NCBI GenBank assembly: GCA_016792935.1
Contig: JAEUJS010000708.1
Location: 1 to 64,000 of the forward strand
Length of the DNA stretch: 64,000 nt
DNA from: Archangium sp.
Lineage (GTDB): Bacteria > Myxococcota > Myxococcia > Myxococcales > Myxococcaceae
Direction of reading: 5' to 3'
The position numbers were made by a program, and so were the translations under genes. The notes beneath the pieces are model-generated. The model searched no databases. It saw only the letters and a list, made by a program, of their open reading frames with translations, and had not been told where the DNA came from. This document shows, one piece after another, positions 14,555 through 24,145 of the stretch. Position 1 is the first letter of the stretch, and every line of letters starts with the position of its first letter.

Positions 14555-15823
14555 TCACTCGCGCGCATCGGCCTGCCCTCCCACCCGAATCGAGCGCAGC
14601 AACGCCGCGGCGCAGAGCGCGACGCCGAAGAACGCGAGCGGGCCAGACCCACCGGCGATGGCCTGCGCGACGCGCAGCGAAGACAGCTCGCAGAGTCGCC
14701 CGCCCGCTCCGAGCGCCAGCGCGAGGACGCCTGCGTCGTAGACGCGTGGCCACTGCAGCTGCACGCCCGCGAAGCCCGGCACCATGCGGCCCGCGAAGCC
14801 GAAGGCGAGGAGCGACGCCGCGCCGAGCGTGAAGGCGTGTCGCGAGGCGTCGTCGAGCAGGGCGGGGCTCCACGTGCCGAGAGCGCGCGCGGCGACCCAG
14901 AGCTGCAACGCGCCGAAGGCCAACAGAAAGACGAGGCCCGCCTGAATCGCGCGCGGCTGCAGCGCTCCGAGCGCCGCCACGCTCTGACCCGAGAACGGCC
15001 GCACCAACCACCACACCACACCGCACGCGAAGGCCAGCGCGAGTCCGCTCAGCGCGGTCAGCAGGTCGAAGAAGACCGAGGCCACGGCCGTGACGCACGC
15101 CAGCTGCCACGCGATGAGGAGGAAGCGCTGCGCACGCAGCGACGCGCGCGCCACGCGCAGGGTGCAGATGCCAGCGCGAAAGAAGACGCCCCACAGCCAC
15201 GAGCCGACGCCGCCGAAGAGCGCGGCGCGCCACACCGCTTCCAACGGCACGCGCGCGGGCGAAAACGACCACACCACCATCGCCAGCGCGGCCAGCCACC
15301 ACCACGCGGCGCCCGCGGTGACGAAGAAATGGAGCGGCTCTTTGGGCGCGATGCCCTGGCGCCACGCGCGCGAGAGCCACCAGCCCCACGTGCTCATGGC
15401 GGCCAACACCAGGAGCGCGCCGAGCGGGCCGAGGACCTGCGAGCCGGGGACCAGCACGCCGAAGCGGCCGATGACGAGCAGCAGCGCTCCACCGATTCCT
15501 GCCCACGCGAGTACGCGCGTCATCACCTTCGAGGGCGCCCGCCAGGCGAAGAAGCGCGGCGCCAGATGGAGCGAGACGCCCAGGGTCAACAGCCACAGGA
15601 AGCCGAAGAGCTGGCCGATGGCGTGCGCGGTGCGATGCGCCTCGGGCACCGCCTTCTGCAACACGCGCAGCGTCCACAGGTCGAGCGCGCCGGTGAGCGC
15701 TCCCACCAGCGTGGTGAAGCACAGGGCGGCGATGACGAACGGTGGCCACGGAGCGCGTTCTCGTGTCACCGGTCGCGCTTCGACCACGCTCAGCTGCAGG
15801 AAGCGCTGCGCAGTGAGCCTCAT
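14555..15823 (-). CDS. NnrS family membrane protein
   Basis: This polytopic inner-membrane protein has 422 residues with about 11-12 hydrophobic segments. NnrS-like landmarks are HAIGQLFGFLWLLTLGVSLH, where His residues face a membrane helix, and SRHAFTLGAASLLAFGFAGR, followed by MVPGF. NnrS proteins are haem- and copper-containing and protect cells against nitric oxide and nitrosative stress; they are often found with denitrification genes, which fits the adjacent nosZ cluster. The ATG at 15823 (MRLTAQRF) has GGAG upstream; the longer open frame is unsupported. It lies 64 bases after the conserved membrane protein and probably shares its transcript. Confidence 0.82.
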   Translation of the reverse strand: MRLTAQRFLQLSVVEARPVTRERAPWPPFVIAALCFTTLVGALTGALDLWTLRVLQKAVPEAHRTAHAIGQLFGFLWLLTLGVSLHLAPRFFAWRAPSKVMTRVLAWAGIGGALLLVIGRFGVLVPGSQVLGPLGALLVLAAMSTWGWWLSRAWRQGIAPKEPLHFFVTAGAAWWWLAALAMVVWSFSPARVPLEAVWRAALFGGVGSWLWGVFFRAGICTLRVARASLRAQRFLLIAWQLACVTAVASVFFDLLTALSGLALAFACGVVWWLVRPFSGQSVAALGALQPRAIQAGLVFLLAFGALQLWVAARALGTWSPALLDDASRHAFTLGAASLLAFGFAGRMVPGFAGVQLQWPRVYDAGVLALALGAGGRLCELSSLRVAQAIAGGSGPLAFFGVALCAAALLRSIRVGGQADARE

Positions 15824-16547: not shown

Positions 16548-16609
16548 GCGCGGGCGGACTGCATCGGCCACGCCAGCGCCGGTATCGGGTGTGCAGGCAA
16601 ATCCCACCC

Positions 16610-17605
16610 ATGGTGGATGGAGTGAAAACCGCCGGACCTTTCACGTGTTCGACGCCGCTCGAGCGCGGCACCTTGTGCAGAATTTGCCGTCACGAGAGCG
16701 AGCAGCACTCCGGGCCGCGGACCTGCCGACGCCTCGTCGCTCACAGCGCGGCGATGCGCTCGTTGCTCGAGCGCGTCGAGTCGCTGGCGCCGGCCAATGA
16801 CCCGCTGCTGATTCGCGGTGAGCCCGGCGCGGGCAAAGAAGTCATCGCGCGCACGGTGCACGCCAACGGCAACCGGCGAGACCGCCCCTTCGTGGTGCTC
16901 AACTGCGCGGCCAGCGAAGCCGCCCGGCTCCACTCCGAGCTCTTCGGCGCCCCGATGCAGCGCGGCCTCTTCGAGGTCGCCGGCGGGGGAACGCTCTTCC
17001 TCGATGAAATCGCCGACATTCCACTCGACGTGCAGGCGCGGCTGCTGCGCGCGGTGGAAGACCACGAGGTCAAACCGCTGGGCGGAGAAGTCGTGCACGT
17101 CGACCTGCGCGTCATCGGCTCGAGCGCGCGCGACCTCGAGACCGCCGTGCGCGAAGGGCGCTTTCGCGAAGACCTCTTCTATCGGCTGAACGTCTTCACG
17201 TTGACGGTTCCTCCCCTGCGTGAGCGCGGAGACGACGTGCTCGAGCTGGCGGAGATGTTCCTCGCGCAACTGGGTCACCAGGGGGGGCTGACGCCGACGG
17301 CGCTCCTCGCGTTGCGTGCCTATGGTTGGCCGGGCAACGTGCGCGAGCTCCACAGCGCCGTGCGCCACGCCGCGGCGATTTCTCGCGGCGCTCCAGTCGA
17401 GCCGAAGCACCTGCCGGAAGCCGTCACGCACATCGCGCAGAAGCGTGAGACGCGGCTGCTGACGCTCGAAGAAGCCGAGCGCAAACACATCATCGCGGTG
17501 CTCGAGGCGTGCGGGGGCGAGCAGGTCGAAGCGGCCCGGGTGCTCGGCATCGGGCGCACGACCCTGTGGCGAAAGCTGCGCCACTACGGGCTGATTTCAA
17601 AGTGA
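16610..17605 (+). CDS. AAA+/Fis-type transcription regulator without a GAFTGA loop
   Basis: This 331-residue protein resembles bacterial enhancer-binding proteins. Walker A is GEPGAGKE (70-77), Walker B LFLDEIADIP (129-138), the arginine-finger region REDLFYRLNVF, and the C-terminal Fis helix-turn-helix AARVLGIGRTTLWRKLRHYG. The sigma-54-contact loop is missing: ELFG is followed by only APMQ before RGLFE, where the family has the GAFTGA segment. The N-terminus instead of a receiver or GAF domain carries four Cys (13, 23, 26, 39) that could bind a metal or Fe-S cluster. The start is uncertain (GTG 16589 or ATG 16610). It precedes nosZ by 159 bases and probably regulates it; the mechanism need not involve sigma-54. 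Confidence 0.75.
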   Translation: MVDGVKTAGPFTCSTPLERGTLCRICRHESEQHSGPRTCRRLVAHSAAMRSLLERVESLAPANDPLLIRGEPGAGKEVIARTVHANGNRRDRPFVVLNCAASEAARLHSELFGAPMQRGLFEVAGGGTLFLDEIADIPLDVQARLLRAVEDHEVKPLGGEVVHVDLRVIGSSARDLETAVREGRFREDLFYRLNVFTLTVPPLRERGDDVLELAEMFLAQLGHQGGLTPTALLALRAYGWPGNVRELHSAVRHAAAISRGAPVEPKHLPEAVTHIAQKRETRLLTLEEAERKHIIAVLEACGGEQVEAARVLGIGRTTLWRKLRHYGLISK

Positions 17606-17713
17606 AACGGCCTCGAAACACCCGCCCTCGCAACCGCTGCGTCTTTTGGAGCCCAAACGCAGGGTGTGCGTGGCGCGTGGCGGCCTGGGCTGATCCGTCC
17701 CTCTGAAGGCGCG

Positions 17714-17729
17714 TGGCACATCGCTCGCA
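17714..17729 (+). promoter_or_regulatory. Candidate sigma-54 (-24/-12) promoter of nosZ
   Basis: TGGCACATCGCTCGCA has a perfect TGGCAC -24 element, exactly 10 bases between the GG and GC pairs, and one mismatch at -12 (TCGCA for TTGCA). It would start transcription about 25 bases before the nosZ ATG, leaving room for the GAGGAGG ribosome site at 17754-17760. Other regulators could also bind here. Confidence 0.6.
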
Positions 17730-17764
17730 CTCGGCGTGGCCGTCGCATCACTCGAGGAGGTCAC

Positions 17765-19732
17765 ATGCACCGCAGACTGCTCAGTTCTCTGGCCGCGCTG
17801 ATCATCGCCGGCTGTTCCCAGGGCAACACCGCGCCCAACGGCACCGGCCCGACCGCCGCCGCGCAAGGCAGCGCTGGCCTCAAGGGCATCATGCAGGAGC
17901 GCAAGCTCACCGAGGCTGACGTCGAGGCCGCGCTGCTGACCTACAAGCCAAGCGGCGCCAAAGACGACTACGTCATCTTCGCGTCAGGTGGTCAGTCTGG
18001 TCAGGTGCTCACCATCGGCGTGCCGTCGATGCGCCTGCTCAAGGTGCTGGCGGTTTTCACACCCGAGCCGTGGCAGGGCTACGGCTACGGGGGTCTGTCG
18101 GACAAGGTGCTCGCCGGCGGCCAGCAGTACAAAGACGGCAAGCTCGCGTGGGCCGACGTGCACCACCCGAACTTGTCGGAGAGCGGCGGTGAGTACGACG
18201 GCAAGTTCCTCTTCGTGAACGACAAAGCCAACGCGCGCGTCGCGGTGGTGGACCTCGCCGACTTCCAGACCAAACAAATCGTGCCCAACGTGCTGGTGGC
18301 GTCCGACCACGGCGGCGCGTTCGTCACGCCCGACACCGACTACGTCATCGAGACCAGCCAGTACCCCGCGCCGCTGGGGCGCGAGTACGCGCCGCTGAGC
18401 CAATACAAGGAGAAGTACCGCGGGCTGGCGATGTTCTGGAAGTTCGACAAGACGAAGGGCCGCATCATCGAGAGCGAGTCGTTCGGCATCGAGCTGCCGC
18501 CGTACACCCAGGATCTCGCCGATTCCGGCAAGCGCGCGTCCGACGGCTACATCTTCATCAACAGCTTCAACACCGAGATGGCCACCGGCGGCATCCTCGA
18601 AGGCAACCCGCCCATGGAATCGGGCGCGTCACAGAACGACACCGACTTCCTGCACGTCATCAACTGGAAGAAGGCCGAGGCGCTGGTGAAGGACGGCAAG
18701 GCGAAGACCATCAAGGGCGTGAAGGTGCTGCCGCTCGAGGTGACCGGCCCCGAGAAGGTGCTGGCGCTCATCGCCGAGCCCAAGTCACCGCACGGTGTCG
18801 ACGTCACTCCCGACGGCCAAGACATCGTGGTCGGAGGCAAGCTCGACACGCACGCCACCGTGTACCGCTTCGAGAAGATCAAGGCGCTGCTCGAGGCCGG
18901 CACGTTCGAAGGGAAGGACCCGTACGGTCTGCCGATTCTCCCCTTCAAGGACTCGATTCGGGGCCAGGTCGAGATTGGGCTCGGGCCGCTCCACACCGTC
19001 TACGACGACAAGGGCTTCGCCTACACCTCGGTGTTCATCGAGAGCGTGGTCGCGAAGTGGGACCTCAAGACCCTGAAGGTCGTCGAGAAGCTGTCCGTTC
19101 ACTACAACATCGGCCACATCCTCGCGGCTGAGGGCGACACCGTGAGCCCCGACGGCAAGTACGTGGTGGCGATGAACAAGATGAGCATCGACCGCTTCGC
19201 GAACATCGGCCCGCTCTACCCGCAGAACTTCCAGCTGGTCGGCATCGACGGACAGAAGATGAAGCTGCTGGCCGACATGCCCATCGGCATCGGTGAGCCG
19301 CACTACGCGCAGATGATCAAGGCCGACAAGTTGAAGCCCATGAAGGTCTACCCGATGGGCACCAACCCCTACACCGACGAGAAGGACGAGTTCGCGGTGA
19401 CGCCCGGCAAGGAACGCATCGAGCGCAACGGCAACGTGGTCAACGTGTACATGACTGCCATTCGCAGCCACTTCACGCCCGACCGCATCGAGGTCGAAGA
19501 AGGCGACATCGTCTTCCTGCACATCACGTCGGTCGAGCAGGCCGAAGACCAGGTGCACGGCTTCACCATCGACATGTACGGCATCAACCTCTCGCTCGAG
19601 CCCGGCAAACACGAGAACGTGAAGTTCGTCGCCGACAAGCCAGGCACCTTCCCGATGTACTGCACCGAGTTCTGCTCGGCGCTCCACCTCGAGATGGCCG
19701 GCTATTTCATGGTCAAGCCGAAGGCGAAGTAG
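17765..19732 (+). CDS. nosZ: Nitrous-oxide reductase, clade II (Sec/lipoprotein) type
   Basis: NosZ reduces N2O to N2 in the periplasm. This copy has 655 residues. The signal peptide (SSLAALIIAGCSQ) lacks a twin-arginine motif and has a lipobox, as in clade II enzymes. The beta-propeller supplies the CuZ histidines: DVHHPN, SDHGGAF, SPHGVDV, GPLHTVYD, NIGHILAAEGD and GEPHYAQM give seven. The C-terminal cupredoxin domain ends with the CuA ligands Cys633, Cys637, His641 and Met644 in YCTEFCSALHLEM. The ATG at 17765 follows GAGGAGG; the upstream open frame is leader. Genes for an electron donor and NosD, F, L and Y follow in order. All catalytic ligands I can check are present, so the enzyme should be functional. 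Confidence 0.97.
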   Translation: MHRRLLSSLAALIIAGCSQGNTAPNGTGPTAAAQGSAGLKGIMQERKLTEADVEAALLTYKPSGAKDDYVIFASGGQSGQVLTIGVPSMRLLKVLAVFTPEPWQGYGYGGLSDKVLAGGQQYKDGKLAWADVHHPNLSESGGEYDGKFLFVNDKANARVAVVDLADFQTKQIVPNVLVASDHGGAFVTPDTDYVIETSQYPAPLGREYAPLSQYKEKYRGLAMFWKFDKTKGRIIESESFGIELPPYTQDLADSGKRASDGYIFINSFNTEMATGGILEGNPPMESGASQNDTDFLHVINWKKAEALVKDGKAKTIKGVKVLPLEVTGPEKVLALIAEPKSPHGVDVTPDGQDIVVGGKLDTHATVYRFEKIKALLEAGTFEGKDPYGLPILPFKDSIRGQVEIGLGPLHTVYDDKGFAYTSVFIESVVAKWDLKTLKVVEKLSVHYNIGHILAAEGDTVSPDGKYVVAMNKMSIDRFANIGPLYPQNFQLVGIDGQKMKLLADMPIGIGEPHYAQMIKADKLKPMKVYPMGTNPYTDEKDEFAVTPGKERIERNGNVVNVYMTAIRSHFTPDRIEVEEGDIVFLHITSVEQAEDQVHGFTIDMYGINLSLEPGKHENVKFVADKPGTFPMYCTEFCSALHLEMAGYFMVKPKAK

Positions 19733-20267: not shown

Positions 20268-21512
20268 GTGAGCGCCCTCGTCCTCACGCTCCTCGCCGCC
20301 GCTGGGCCGCTCTCTCCAGCGTGCCCTTCGAACGCGGTGCGCGACGCCGACTCGCTCCGTGCGGCGCTCGCGAACGTGGACGTGCGCGAGGTGTGGGTGG
20401 GCGGGCGCGTGCAGGGCGACTTCGAGAGCAAGCGCGGCGTGGCGATTCACGGCTGCGAGGCCGCGACGCTGGTGGGGTCGGGCACCGCGACCATCTTGAA
20501 GCTGAAGGGCGACGACGTGCTGGTCGAAGATGTCGCCTTCGAAGGGTCGGGCAGCCGCGTCTCGTTCGAAGATGGCGCGCTGAAGGTGAGCGGTGAGCGC
20601 GCGGTGGTGCGGCGCGTCTCGGTGCGCGACACGCTCTACGGCATCGCCTTCGAGCAGTGCCACGCGTGCGTGCTCGAAGACACGCGCATCGAAGGCCGCG
20701 CGGAAATCGAAGAGAACCAGCGCGGCGACGGCGTGAAGTTGTGGGAAGCGCACGGCTCGAGCGTTCGCCGCCTCGACGTGCGCGGCGTGCGGGACCTCGT
20801 GGTCTGGTACTCGCGGCACGTCACCCTCGAAGACAACCGCATCACCGGCGGGCGGTACGGCACGCACTTCATGTACGCGCACGATTCGACGGTGCGTCGC
20901 AGCATCTTGCGCGGCAACACCGTGGGCATCTTCGTCATGTATTCGGCGCGCGTGCTCGCGGAAGACAACGAGCTGTCGGGCGCGCGCGGCCCGGCCGGCA
21001 TGGGCATCGGCTTCAAGGAAAGCGACGCGGTGACGTTGAAGCGCAACGCCATCGTCGCCAACACCACCGGCCTGTACCTCGACTACACGCCGCGCGACCC
21101 GAAGCAGCCGGTGCTCTTCGAGAACAACATGCTGGCGCTCAACGCCGTGGCGCTGCGCACCCATTCCAGCGAACACGGCGCGCGCTTCGCCGCCAACGAC
21201 TTCCTCGAGAACGACGCGCTGGTCGAAGTCGACGGCAACGGCGACGCGCTGGGAGTCGACTTCGTCGGCAACCACTGGGCCGCCTACGCCGGCTACGACC
21301 TGAACGGCGACGGCGTCGGCGACGTGGCCTTCCAGGTGAAGCGAGCCAGCTCGAGCCTCACCGACGCGCACCCCGACCTGCGGTGGTTCCACGCCACGCC
21401 GGCGTTCGGGCTCTACGACGCCGTCGCCACCGCGCTGCCGTACTTCGGAACCACGTTGCTGCTGCAAGACGCGACGCCCGCCATGCGTCCCCACCGCGAG
21501 GTGCCGAGATGA
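20268..21512 (+). CDS. nosD: NosD, periplasmic copper-centre maturation protein
   Basis: NosD is a periplasmic parallel-beta-helix protein needed with NosF and NosY to assemble CuZ of NosZ. This 414-residue copy has a Sec signal (SALVLTLLAAAGPLSPACP) and successive right-handed beta-helix rungs from about 60 to 320, marked by repeated asparagine/valine turns and lengths near 22 residues per rung. The family landmark RYGTHFMYAHDS is present, as is LEDNRITGG. The GTG at 20268 begins one base after the cytochrome stop. Its stop overlaps nosF (ATGA), implying coupled synthesis of the ABC partner. Confidence 0.93.
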   Translation: MSALVLTLLAAAGPLSPACPSNAVRDADSLRAALANVDVREVWVGGRVQGDFESKRGVAIHGCEAATLVGSGTATILKLKGDDVLVEDVAFEGSGSRVSFEDGALKVSGERAVVRRVSVRDTLYGIAFEQCHACVLEDTRIEGRAEIEENQRGDGVKLWEAHGSSVRRLDVRGVRDLVVWYSRHVTLEDNRITGGRYGTHFMYAHDSTVRRSILRGNTVGIFVMYSARVLAEDNELSGARGPAGMGIGFKESDAVTLKRNAIVANTTGLYLDYTPRDPKQPVLFENNMLALNAVALRTHSSEHGARFAANDFLENDALVEVDGNGDALGVDFVGNHWAAYAGYDLNGDGVGDVAFQVKRASSSLTDAHPDLRWFHATPAFGLYDAVATALPYFGTTLLLQDATPAMRPHREVPR

Positions 21513-22243
21513 TTTCGTTTCAGAACGTCAGCAAGACGTTCGGGCGCGTGCGTGCACTCGACGCGGTGTCGCTCGACATCAAGCCCGGCGAGCGCGTGGC
21601 GTTGGTGGGCACCAACGGCTCGGGGAAGACGACGCTCCTGCGCGCGCTGTGTGGGCTGCTGCGCGTCGAAGGGCGCGTGACGCTCTTTGGCAGTGACGTG
21701 GCGCGCGAGCCCCAGGTCGCGCTGCGGAGTCTGGCGTGCATGCCGCAGGTCGCTCCGCCGCTCGATGCGCCGGTGCGCGAGCTGGTGAACGCCTTCTGTG
21801 CGCTGCGTTCGCGCGATGCGGCTGCGTGTCGGCAGCGCGCGCGGCGCCTGGGGCTCGATCTCGAGGCGGTGGCGAAGACGCGGGTGCGCGACCTCTCGGG
21901 AGGCATGAAGCAGAAGCTCCTCGCGGCGCTCGCGCTGACGGCCGAAGCGCCGGTGCTGGTGTGCGACGAGCCGACCGCCAACCTCGACGCCGAGGCGCGC
22001 AGCGTGTTCTTCGAAGACGTGCTGGGTCGCCCCGACAATTCCATCCTCGTGTTGTGCAGCCACCGGGTCGATGAAGTGCGCCACCTCGTTCAACGCGTGG
22101 TGCAGCTCGAAGAGGGCCGCGTGGTGCAGGACGCGACGCTCGAAAACATGCAGTGGGGGGCGCAGGCGGCCAGCCCCGACAACGTCATCGCGCTGCGCCC
22201 AGGCAGTCACGTCGCCGGCGGGCTTCACGGAGGTGGCCGATGA
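21509..22243 (+). CDS. nosF: NosF, ABC transporter ATPase of the Nos system
   Basis: This 244-residue cytoplasmic ATPase energises the NosFY transporter that works with NosD in CuZ assembly. All ABC elements are visible: Walker A GTNGSGKTT, Q-loop region CMPQ, signature LSGGMKQ, Walker B VLVCDEP and the switch His in CSHRVDE. The C-terminal 40 residues are longer than in minimal ABC domains. It overlaps nosD upstream and nosL downstream by four bases each, so translation of the three is chained. Confidence 0.93.
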   Translation: MISFQNVSKTFGRVRALDAVSLDIKPGERVALVGTNGSGKTTLLRALCGLLRVEGRVTLFGSDVAREPQVALRSLACMPQVAPPLDAPVRELVNAFCALRSRDAAACRQRARRLGLDLEAVAKTRVRDLSGGMKQKLLAALALTAEAPVLVCDEPTANLDAEARSVFFEDVLGRPDNSILVLCSHRVDEVRHLVQRVVQLEEGRVVQDATLENMQWGAQAASPDNVIALRPGSHVAGGLHGGGR

Positions 22244-22653
22244 GACGCGCCCTCATGCTGCTGGTGCTCGGCGTGGTGCTCGCGTGTGAGAAGGGCGGCC
22301 CCGTTCCACAAGAGCCCGTGTGGGGCAAACAGGCCTGCGCGCACTGCTCGATGTTGGTGAGTGAGAAGGCGCCCAGCGCACAGGTGGTGCTGAAGAACGG
22401 CCAGCGGAAGTTCTTCGACGACGTGGGGTGCCTCGTGGCGTGGGAAGAGCGAGAGCACCCCGACGTGTCGGCGCGATGGGTGCGTGGCCCGAGCGCAGAG
22501 GGGTGGGTCGACCCCGCGCAGACGCGCTTCGCCGAAGGGCAAACCACGCCGATGGACTTCGGCTTCATCGCGGCCAGGGAAGGCGTGACGTTCGACGTGG
22601 TGCGCGCCGCGGTGGCGAAGAAGGCGCGGCCGGGCACCGAGGTGACGCCATGA
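22240..22653 (+). CDS. nosL: NosL copper chaperone lipoprotein
   Basis: NosL is an outer-membrane lipoprotein that delivers Cu(I) to NosZ. This copy has 137 residues, a lipobox in LGVVLACEKG, and the Cu-binding region ACAHCSMLVSE, with further ligands in FFDDVGCLVAW. MDFGFIAAREGVTF is part of the NosL fold. The C-terminal codons RPGTEVTP, overlapping the next start, recur as RPNTEVTP and NSSGTEVSP in two following tiny ORFs. It starts inside the nosF stop (ATGA). Function is well supported by sequence and context. Confidence 0.92.
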   Translation: MRRALMLLVLGVVLACEKGGPVPQEPVWGKQACAHCSMLVSEKAPSAQVVLKNGQRKFFDDVGCLVAWEEREHPDVSARWVRGPSAEGWVDPAQTRFAEGQTTPMDFGFIAAREGVTFDVVRAAVAKKARPGTEVTP

Positions 22654-22718
22654 GCCTCTTCGCGACCAACGACGTGACGTTCGAGACGACGCGGCCGAAC
22701 ACCGAGGTGACGCCATGA
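22650..22718 (+). CDS. Tandem mini-ORF 1 between nosL and nosY
   Basis: A 22-residue ORF, starting MSLFATNDVT and ending RPNTEVTP, begins in the nosL stop (ATGA) and ends in the start of mini-ORF 2. It is copy one of the tandem repeat and its last residues repeat the nosL C-terminus. The first four residues resemble the nosY start. It has the same junction style as real genes of the operon, so ribosomes would be expected to traverse it by reinitiation. Whether the peptide has a role is unknown; it may only be a by-product of duplication. Confidence 0.5.
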   Translation: MSLFATNDVTFETTRPNTEVTP

Positions 22719-22792
22719 GCCTCTCCGCGACCAACGACGTGACGTTCGAGACGACGCGGCCGAACAGCTCGGGCACCGAGGTGTCGCCATGA
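22715..22792 (+). CDS. Tandem mini-ORF 2 between nosL and nosY
   Basis: A 25-residue ORF, starting MSLSATNDVT and ending NSSGTEVSP, begins in the stop of mini-ORF 1 and ends within the nosY start (ATGA at both ends). It differs from mini-ORF 1 by Phe-to-Ser at residue 4 and an insertion of three codons near the end. The preserved frame in both copies is notable, because a 65-base period would break a continuous frame; each copy instead restarts at its own ATG. Function is unknown. Confidence 0.5.
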   Translation: MSLSATNDVTFETTRPNSSGTEVSP

Positions 22793-23622
22793 GCCCCTTC
22801 GCGGCCTTTCTTCGCCTCGAGCTCGCCGACGCGCTGCGCTCCCGCTGGGTCGCGCTGACCGGCCTCATCTACACCGGCCTGGCGGGAGCCTTCGTGTGGT
22901 TCGGGCTGCGCGAGTCGACGGTGCTCGGCTTCACCGGCCTCTCGCGCGTTCTGCTCAATCTCGCCAACGCGGTCATCCTCGTCTTCCCGCTGGTGGTGCT
23001 CATCGCCACCCACGCCGCGGTGGTGCGCGCGCGGACCAGCGGGTTCTGCGAGCTGATGCTGACGCAGCCGGTGAAACGTTCGACCTGGTTCCTCTCGCTG
23101 CTGGCGTCGCGCCTCATCGTGCTCGTCGGTCCGTTGCTGGTGCTGCTGGTGGGGTGCTTCATCGCCGCGTTCTTCGTCGAGCCCGAGCCGGGCCTCGGCG
23201 TCATCGCGTTCAAGAGCGTCGGCGTCAGCGTGGCGCTGGTGTTCGCGTTCGTCGGGCTGGGGCTCGTCATCTCGACGTACGCCCGCACCGCTGAGCGCGC
23301 GATGGTGTGGGCGCTGTTGCTCTTCGTCGTCACCGCGGCCTTGCACGACGTGTTGCTCATCACGGTGCTGCTGCGGACGTCGCTCCCGCCGCAGGTGGTC
23401 TTCGCGGTGTCGGCGCTCAACCCGACCGAGGCCGCGCGCGTCGGCATTCTCGCCAGCGCCGACCCGGAGCTCTCGGTGTTGGGGCCAGTCGGCTTCTGGC
23501 TGGCGAACACGCTCGGGCCGAACCTGGCGTTGAGCGTGGCCATCGCGTGGCCGCTCGCGCTCGGGGCCATCGCCACCCTGGCGGCGCTGCGTCGCGCCGA
23601 ACGAATGGACCTCGTTGGTTGA
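22789..23622 (+). CDS. nosY: NosY, ABC permease of the Nos system
   Basis: NosY is the membrane subunit of the NosFY transporter. This 277-residue protein has about six membrane segments (near 20-40, 55-75, 100-130, 140-165, 175-205 and 240-262), with conserved NosY-like elements GFCELMLTQPVKRSTWFLS after the second helix and SALNPTEAARVGILA near 205-220. The ATG at 22789 begins within the stop of mini-ORF 2, so its translation should depend on the chain of short ORFs after nosL. It is the last recognised nos gene before the fasciclin-domain protein. Confidence 0.9.
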   Translation: MSPFAAFLRLELADALRSRWVALTGLIYTGLAGAFVWFGLRESTVLGFTGLSRVLLNLANAVILVFPLVVLIATHAAVVRARTSGFCELMLTQPVKRSTWFLSLLASRLIVLVGPLLVLLVGCFIAAFFVEPEPGLGVIAFKSVGVSVALVFAFVGLGLVISTYARTAERAMVWALLLFVVTAALHDVLLITVLLRTSLPPQVVFAVSALNPTEAARVGILASADPELSVLGPVGFWLANTLGPNLALSVAIAWPLALGAIATLAALRRAERMDLVG

Positions 23623-23665: not shown

Positions 23666-24145
23666 ATGAGAAGCACTTCCCTCGCAGTCATCTGCTTCCT
23701 GGCGTCGGTCACGTTGGCGGCAGACGCACAGCCCGCGACGGTGGTCGACATCGCCGTCGGCTCGAGTGACCACACCACCCTGGTCACCGCGCTCAAGACC
23801 GCTGACTACGTCCGTTCACTGCAGAACGCCGGTCCGTTCACCGTGTTCGCGCCGACGAACGCGGCGTTCGACAAGCTGCCCAAAGGCACGCTGGAAGGCT
23901 TGATGAAGCCCGAGAGCAAGGACGCGCTCCAGAACATCCTCAAGTACCACGTGGCGGTGTCCGTCTACGAAGTGCGCGCCATGAAGGAAGGCATGAAGCT
24001 GGGCGTCGCCAACGGCGCCAACGTCGTCTTCCACGTGAAGGACGGCAAGACGTACGTGAATGACGCGCAGATTCTCGGGTCCGCCCGCGCCGGTAACGGC
24101 ATCGTGCACATCGTCGACGGAGTCCTCCTCCCTCCGACGAAGTGA
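23666..24145 (+). CDS. Fasciclin (FAS1) domain secreted protein
   Basis: This 159-residue protein has a Sec signal (SLAVICFLASVTLAADA) and one FAS1 domain. Signature blocks are FTVFAPTNAAFDKLP, NILKYHVAV (the YH motif) and IVHIVDGVLLPP at the end. FAS1 domains mediate adhesion or binding in the envelope. The start at 23666 follows GGAGG. It lies 43 bases after nosY in the same direction, so it may be transcribed with the nos genes; a direct role in N2O reduction is not established and coincidental placement is possible. Confidence 0.88.
   Translation: MRSTSLAVICFLASVTLAADAQPATVVDIAVGSSDHTTLVTALKTADYVRSLQNAGPFTVFAPTNAAFDKLPKGTLEGLMKPESKDALQNILKYHVAVSVYEVRAMKEGMKLGVANGANVVFHVKDGKTYVNDAQILGSARAGNGIVHIVDGVLLPPTK

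Follow-up and report, generated by a model that had tools for sequence, protein, structure and literature searches.

We report a short tandem array between the nosL and nosY genes in the nitrous oxide reductase cluster of an uncultured myxobacterium, Archangium sp., which we read, with a probability of roughly 0.8, as a recent, lineage-specific and mostly harmless tandem duplication of the nosL-nosY junction, whose mini-ORFs probably pass ribosomes on. Judged from its sequence, the array looks like the outcome of a two-step local tandem duplication and not like a new control system. It shows that ATGA overlaps can outlast duplication, yielding chained mini-ORFs de novo without a mobile element, and it suggests one simple way in which coupled mini-ORF arrays like the MIRUs might have arisen, besides offering a natural test of the number of reinitiation steps that a ribosome tolerates. 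It tells us little about denitrification itself and is a modest curiosity. A literature search, covering open-licence papers, did not turn up any previous description of a nos operon with an array of this kind.

The window, the whole 64,000-nucleotide stretch of DNA analysed, carries on its plus strand a nitrous oxide reductase gene cluster of clade II type, comprising nosZ, a c-type cytochrome gene, nosD, nosF, nosL and nosY (Table 1). The NosL assignment is weak, though above the cut-off (Pfam PF05573, E 1.7e-5, 25.6 bits against a cut-off of 24). Consecutive co-oriented ORFs are joined by RTGA (-4) overlaps, in each case ATGA, at nosD-nosF (21509), at nosF-nosL (22240) and at the array junctions (22650, 22715 and 22789), which confirms the original prediction that every junction of the array has this form. 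On the same strand, just upstream of nosZ, positions 16589-17605 encode a sigma-54 activator (AAA+ with a Fis-type HTH) that may control the nos genes; a fasciclin-domain protein is encoded immediately downstream of nosY (23666-24145).

Table 1. Features of the nos cluster and of the nosL-nosY array (positions in the window)
Feature	Position	Strand	Remarks
nosZ	17666-19732	+	TIGR04246, 824 bits; clade II type
nosF	21509-22243	+	ABC ATPase, NosF position; ATGA link at both ends
nosL	22240-22653	+	137 aa; PF05573; start in ATGA overlap with nosF, end in the array's first ATGA
Junction copy J1	22631-22667	+	true nosL end and nosY-like start; repeat search
SD-like GAGGTGA of J1	22640-22646 (within about a base)	+	predicted anti-SD duplex -11.5 kcal/mol
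Unit 1	22650-22714	+	65 nt (2 mod 3); TRF, repeat search; a single unequal exchange yields it with 1 mismatch
Mini-ORF 1	22650-22718	+	22 codons, MSLFATNDVTFETTRPNTEVTP then stop; ATGA at both ends
Junction copy J2	22696-22732	+	chimera: left half of J3 type, right half of J1 type
SD-like GAGGTGA of J2	22705-22711 (within about a base)	+	predicted anti-SD duplex -11.5 kcal/mol
Unit 2	22715-22788	+	74 nt (2 mod 3); TRF, repeat search, exchange reconstruction
Mini-ORF 2	22715-22792	+	25 codons, MSLSATNDVTFETTRPNSSGTEVSP then stop; ATGA at both ends
Junction copy J3	22770-22806	+	nosL-like end and true nosY start; MSPF start common to near relative L021
SD-like GAGGTG of nosY	22779-22784 (within about a base)	+	predicted anti-SD duplex -9.8 kcal/mol
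nosY	22789-23622	+	ABC-2 permease, NosY position, 277 aa; PF12679, E 1.4e-11

Two head-to-tail units occupy the interval from the nosL stop codon (22651-22653) to the nosY ATG (22789). TRF describes a tandem repeat at 22625-22766 with a period of 65, 2.2 copies, 96% matches and a score of 263, and a repeat search finds a 37-nt junction sequence three times, beginning at 22631, 22696 and 22770, 92% identical and spaced by 65 and 74 nt. The sequence, TRF and the repeat search thus agree with the earlier description of a repeated unit of 65-74 bases that carries the end of nosL and the start of nosY and creates two mini-ORFs of 22 and 25 codons. Three ATGA overlaps chain nosL, mini-ORF 1, mini-ORF 2 and nosY, with an SD-like GAGGTG(A) a few bases ahead of each ATG. 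Similar RTGA pairs occurred in none of 20 scrambled versions of the window, and the array exceeds chance expectation.

The units are made of the sequence that flanks them, lie head to tail and can be accounted for by slippage or unequal exchange. Each consists of a nosY-like start fused to a nosL-like tail from which 24 nt are absent: the unit head reads MSLFAT against MSPFAA in nosY, and the tail DVTFE..TRPNTEVTP against GVTFDVVRAAVAKKARPGTEVTP in nosL. The common sequence GTGACGTTCGA precedes the ATGA by 65 nt in nosL and by 41 nt in unit 1, from which it follows that 24 nt (8 codons) are missing. The unit interior shares with nosL a 12-nt exact match in the same reading phase and 24 nt nearer to the ATGA, which was equalled by 4 of 5000 shuffles and by 13 of 4940 random stretches of the window; this homology is short, a point against the duplication reading. 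Unit 1 can be rebuilt, with 1 mismatch in 65 nt, by joining the left-hand portion of unit 2, as far as CGGCCGAACA, to the right-hand portion of the nosL tail, beyond CGGCCGGGCA, the exchange point between nosL tail and unit 2 being CGGCCGnnCA. The NosY start at this locus agrees with that of a near relative.

Replication slippage or unequal exchange would have given rise to the array and then enlarged it. In a first step the nosL tail and the nosY head would have been copied; either in that event or subsequently, 24 nt (8 codons) would have been lost and a 9-nt difference from the nosL tail gained. In a second step the new unit would have undergone an exchange with the nosL tail in matching register, giving the second unit. 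As the copied segment included an ATGA overlap together with its SD-like site, and had a length of 2 mod 3, each copy would have become a small ORF. We infer both this order of events and the near-neutrality of the array.

The original prediction treated as surprising that a unit whose length is not a multiple of three should keep an open frame in each copy. The lengths of 65 and 74 nt are indeed not such multiples, and they present no puzzle. In an ATGA overlap the stop codon TGA begins one base past the ATG, and the frame of the first ATG reaches the copied TGA of a tandem copy at period L only if L+1 is divisible by three; a length of 2 mod 3 is therefore required, both units have it, and each copy is in consequence an open frame up to the next overlap. 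A unit length divisible by three would have failed to keep the coupling frame. The second unit falls into phase automatically because unequal exchange or slippage takes place in matching register; chance or selection has to account for the phase in which the first duplication, the 24-nt difference and the 9-nt difference fell. Chance would keep the frame in about 1 case in 3 for a single event and in about 1 in 27 for three independent ones; the latter figure, if independence holds, counts against the duplication reading and hints that continued coupling was selected for. It may be that only in-register copies survived purifying selection on nosY.

Overlaps at -4 spacing usually couple translation, with a contribution of the SD sequence that ranges from none to essential (PMC6728339). 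The predicted anti-SD pairing of the array sites is similar to that of other nos genes (nosF -9.6 and nosL -14.2 kcal/mol). Ribosomes that finish nosL may restart on mini-ORF 1, then on mini-ORF 2 and then on nosY, and some ribosomes would start directly at nosY by way of its own SD, so that NosY translation probably continues through chained termination-reinitiation aided by that site. The two reinitiation steps to nosY that had been proposed are thus plausible but not obligatory, since the strong SD-like site at each ATGA permits de novo starts. We infer from sequence that the mini-ORFs themselves are translated. The peptides themselves probably serve no function: the inter-copy differences inspected, which are too few for a conservation test, alter amino acids and so give no sign of peptide conservation. 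Folding of the array RNA is no better than that of shuffles (z 1.27, 0.01 and 0.37) and an Rfam search of the array region gave no match, on which grounds an RNA structure or riboswitch was rejected. An internal sigma-70 promoter or terminator was likewise rejected, as a search for sigma-70 promoters and terminators, other myxobacterial promoter types lying outside its scope, found neither.

The comparison of the nosL-nosY junction in related genomes, proposed at the outset, was made with 39 distinct relatives' loci in which nosL adjoins nosY, obtained from NosY searches (NosY homologues 65-79% identical). The junction is a single -4 or -1 overlap in 32 of the 39, a gap of 11-28 nt in four and one of 34-243 nt in three; mini-ORF units occur at none. 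The nearest loci (L021-L025), from four assemblies of the same genus and one other in the family, have NosY proteins 70-79% identical and one ATGA or GTGA each; three of them are labelled Archangium sp. or uncultured Archangium sp. Absence from all 39 junctions implies that the array was derived in this lineage, and excludes it as a conserved feature of the nos operon; it is probably young.

It had been suggested that the array could set NosY levels. Such a rheostat would be a selected one, in which a fraction of the ribosomes is lost at each reinitiation, the level of NosY relative to NosL and NosF follows from the number of copies, and heritable variants arise by slippage. Every copy is in register and has an SD-like site, the frame survives the 24- and 9-nt differences, and two papers (PMC13255528, PMC8708949) indicate that a short ORF can change the translation of what lies downstream of it. 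Against this, the relatives lack the array, the RNA folds as shuffles do, the differences between copies change the peptide, nosY possesses its own SD, and the copies are nearly identical and hence young. We regard this explanation as unlikely, and the regulatory reading in general as possible but unsupported. A coupling array of MIRU-like kind but local origin, attenuating or boosting NosY to a degree that slippage can adjust, which if true would make the maturation of N2O reductase tunable by copy number, appears to us quite unlikely. That the array is an artefact of assembly is worth considering in a fragmented metagenome-assembled genome (8,828,644 bases in 740 contigs, 81% complete), and we nevertheless consider it very unlikely: the array sits in an 85 kb contig, its copies differ from one another and in their spacing (65 and 74), exact repeats within it reach 41 nt at most, short of the longer k-mers in common use among assemblers, and the first unit has a nosY start fused to a nosL tail, which the merging of haplotypes would not yield. 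The true number of units could be higher than two.

The closest known counterparts are the mycobacterial interspersed repetitive units (MIRUs), repeats that insert at start codons and carry an internal ORF coupled at -4 spacing, with likely minimal impact on the gene (2025 review, PMC12548453). Those of the mycobacterial senX3-regX3 region have units of 77 and 53 bp (PMC4213456), which like our 65 and 74 nt are all 2 mod 3; in both systems tandem units, each with a small ORF and -4 start/stop overlaps, lie between co-oriented operon genes, and the proposed benefit is the least disturbance of the downstream gene. This matching layout (PMC12548453, PMC4213456) is what would favour a MIRU-like mobile repeat inserting at ATGA sites. 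MIRUs are, however, by definition a dispersed and apparently mobile family, unrelated in sequence to the genes where they insert, whereas the array is found in one place and its unit sequence comes from nosL and nosY themselves. A 236-nt query matched the own assembly once only, the 65-nt unit, searched there at E up to 10, gave its own copies and otherwise chance-level matches of 22-37 nt, and about 95 other genomes of the family held only short, weak matches to it. A mobile or dispersed repeat was rejected on this single site, in an assembly 81% complete, and on those weak family matches; the idea is largely refuted and we hold it to be most improbable. On its sequence, the array resembles a MIRU in its working, yet it does not qualify as one, since it is not dispersed and not of foreign origin.

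The preferred reading, a local duplication of a coupled junction, also sets the array beside the ATGA (-4) termination-reinitiation pairs of Huber et al. (2019), to which kind the relatives' nosL-nosY pairs belong. The overlap is the same, as is the SD-like site in the end of the upstream gene, but those pairs ordinarily have one overlap between two real genes, while the array is a chain by way of duplicated mini-ORFs. The axe-txe minigene and bicistronic designs similarly employ a short ORF that may bring ribosomes to the next start; there function was tested, whereas here two recent tandem copies are presumed to act so.

The frequency of such duplications was estimated from a 631-kb sample of the own genome, of which the window is part, and from 400 kb of each of two relatives. 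Tandem arrays with a period of 30-150 and a score of at least 80 number 28 in the own-genome sample, 24 with a triplet period, as expected within genes, and four, the nosL-nosY array among them, without. That array is the only one of the sample at a coupled operon junction, and neither relative's 400 kb contained any. Small non-triplet duplications occur in this genome; one in phase on an operon junction is rare and needs no special mechanism. Elsewhere in the own genome (C156), locus L085 has a non-triplet 62-nt repeat of about 3 copies at 14555-14752, in which the 3' end of a minus-strand ORF (14702-15136) recurs in the space past that ORF. It is a second instance in this genome of a repeated gene end; it was rejected as a second coupled case because what is repeated is a gene's 3' end on the other strand and not an operon junction. 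The same locus has a 49-nt tandem repeat of 3.4 copies, also of non-triplet period, at 424-589. Within the window, a further tandem repeat at 1049-1180 (69-nt period, 1.9 copies, 85%, rich in GCATCG/GCGTCG) lies in ORFs of both strands and, given its triplet period, is probably an ordinary coding repeat.
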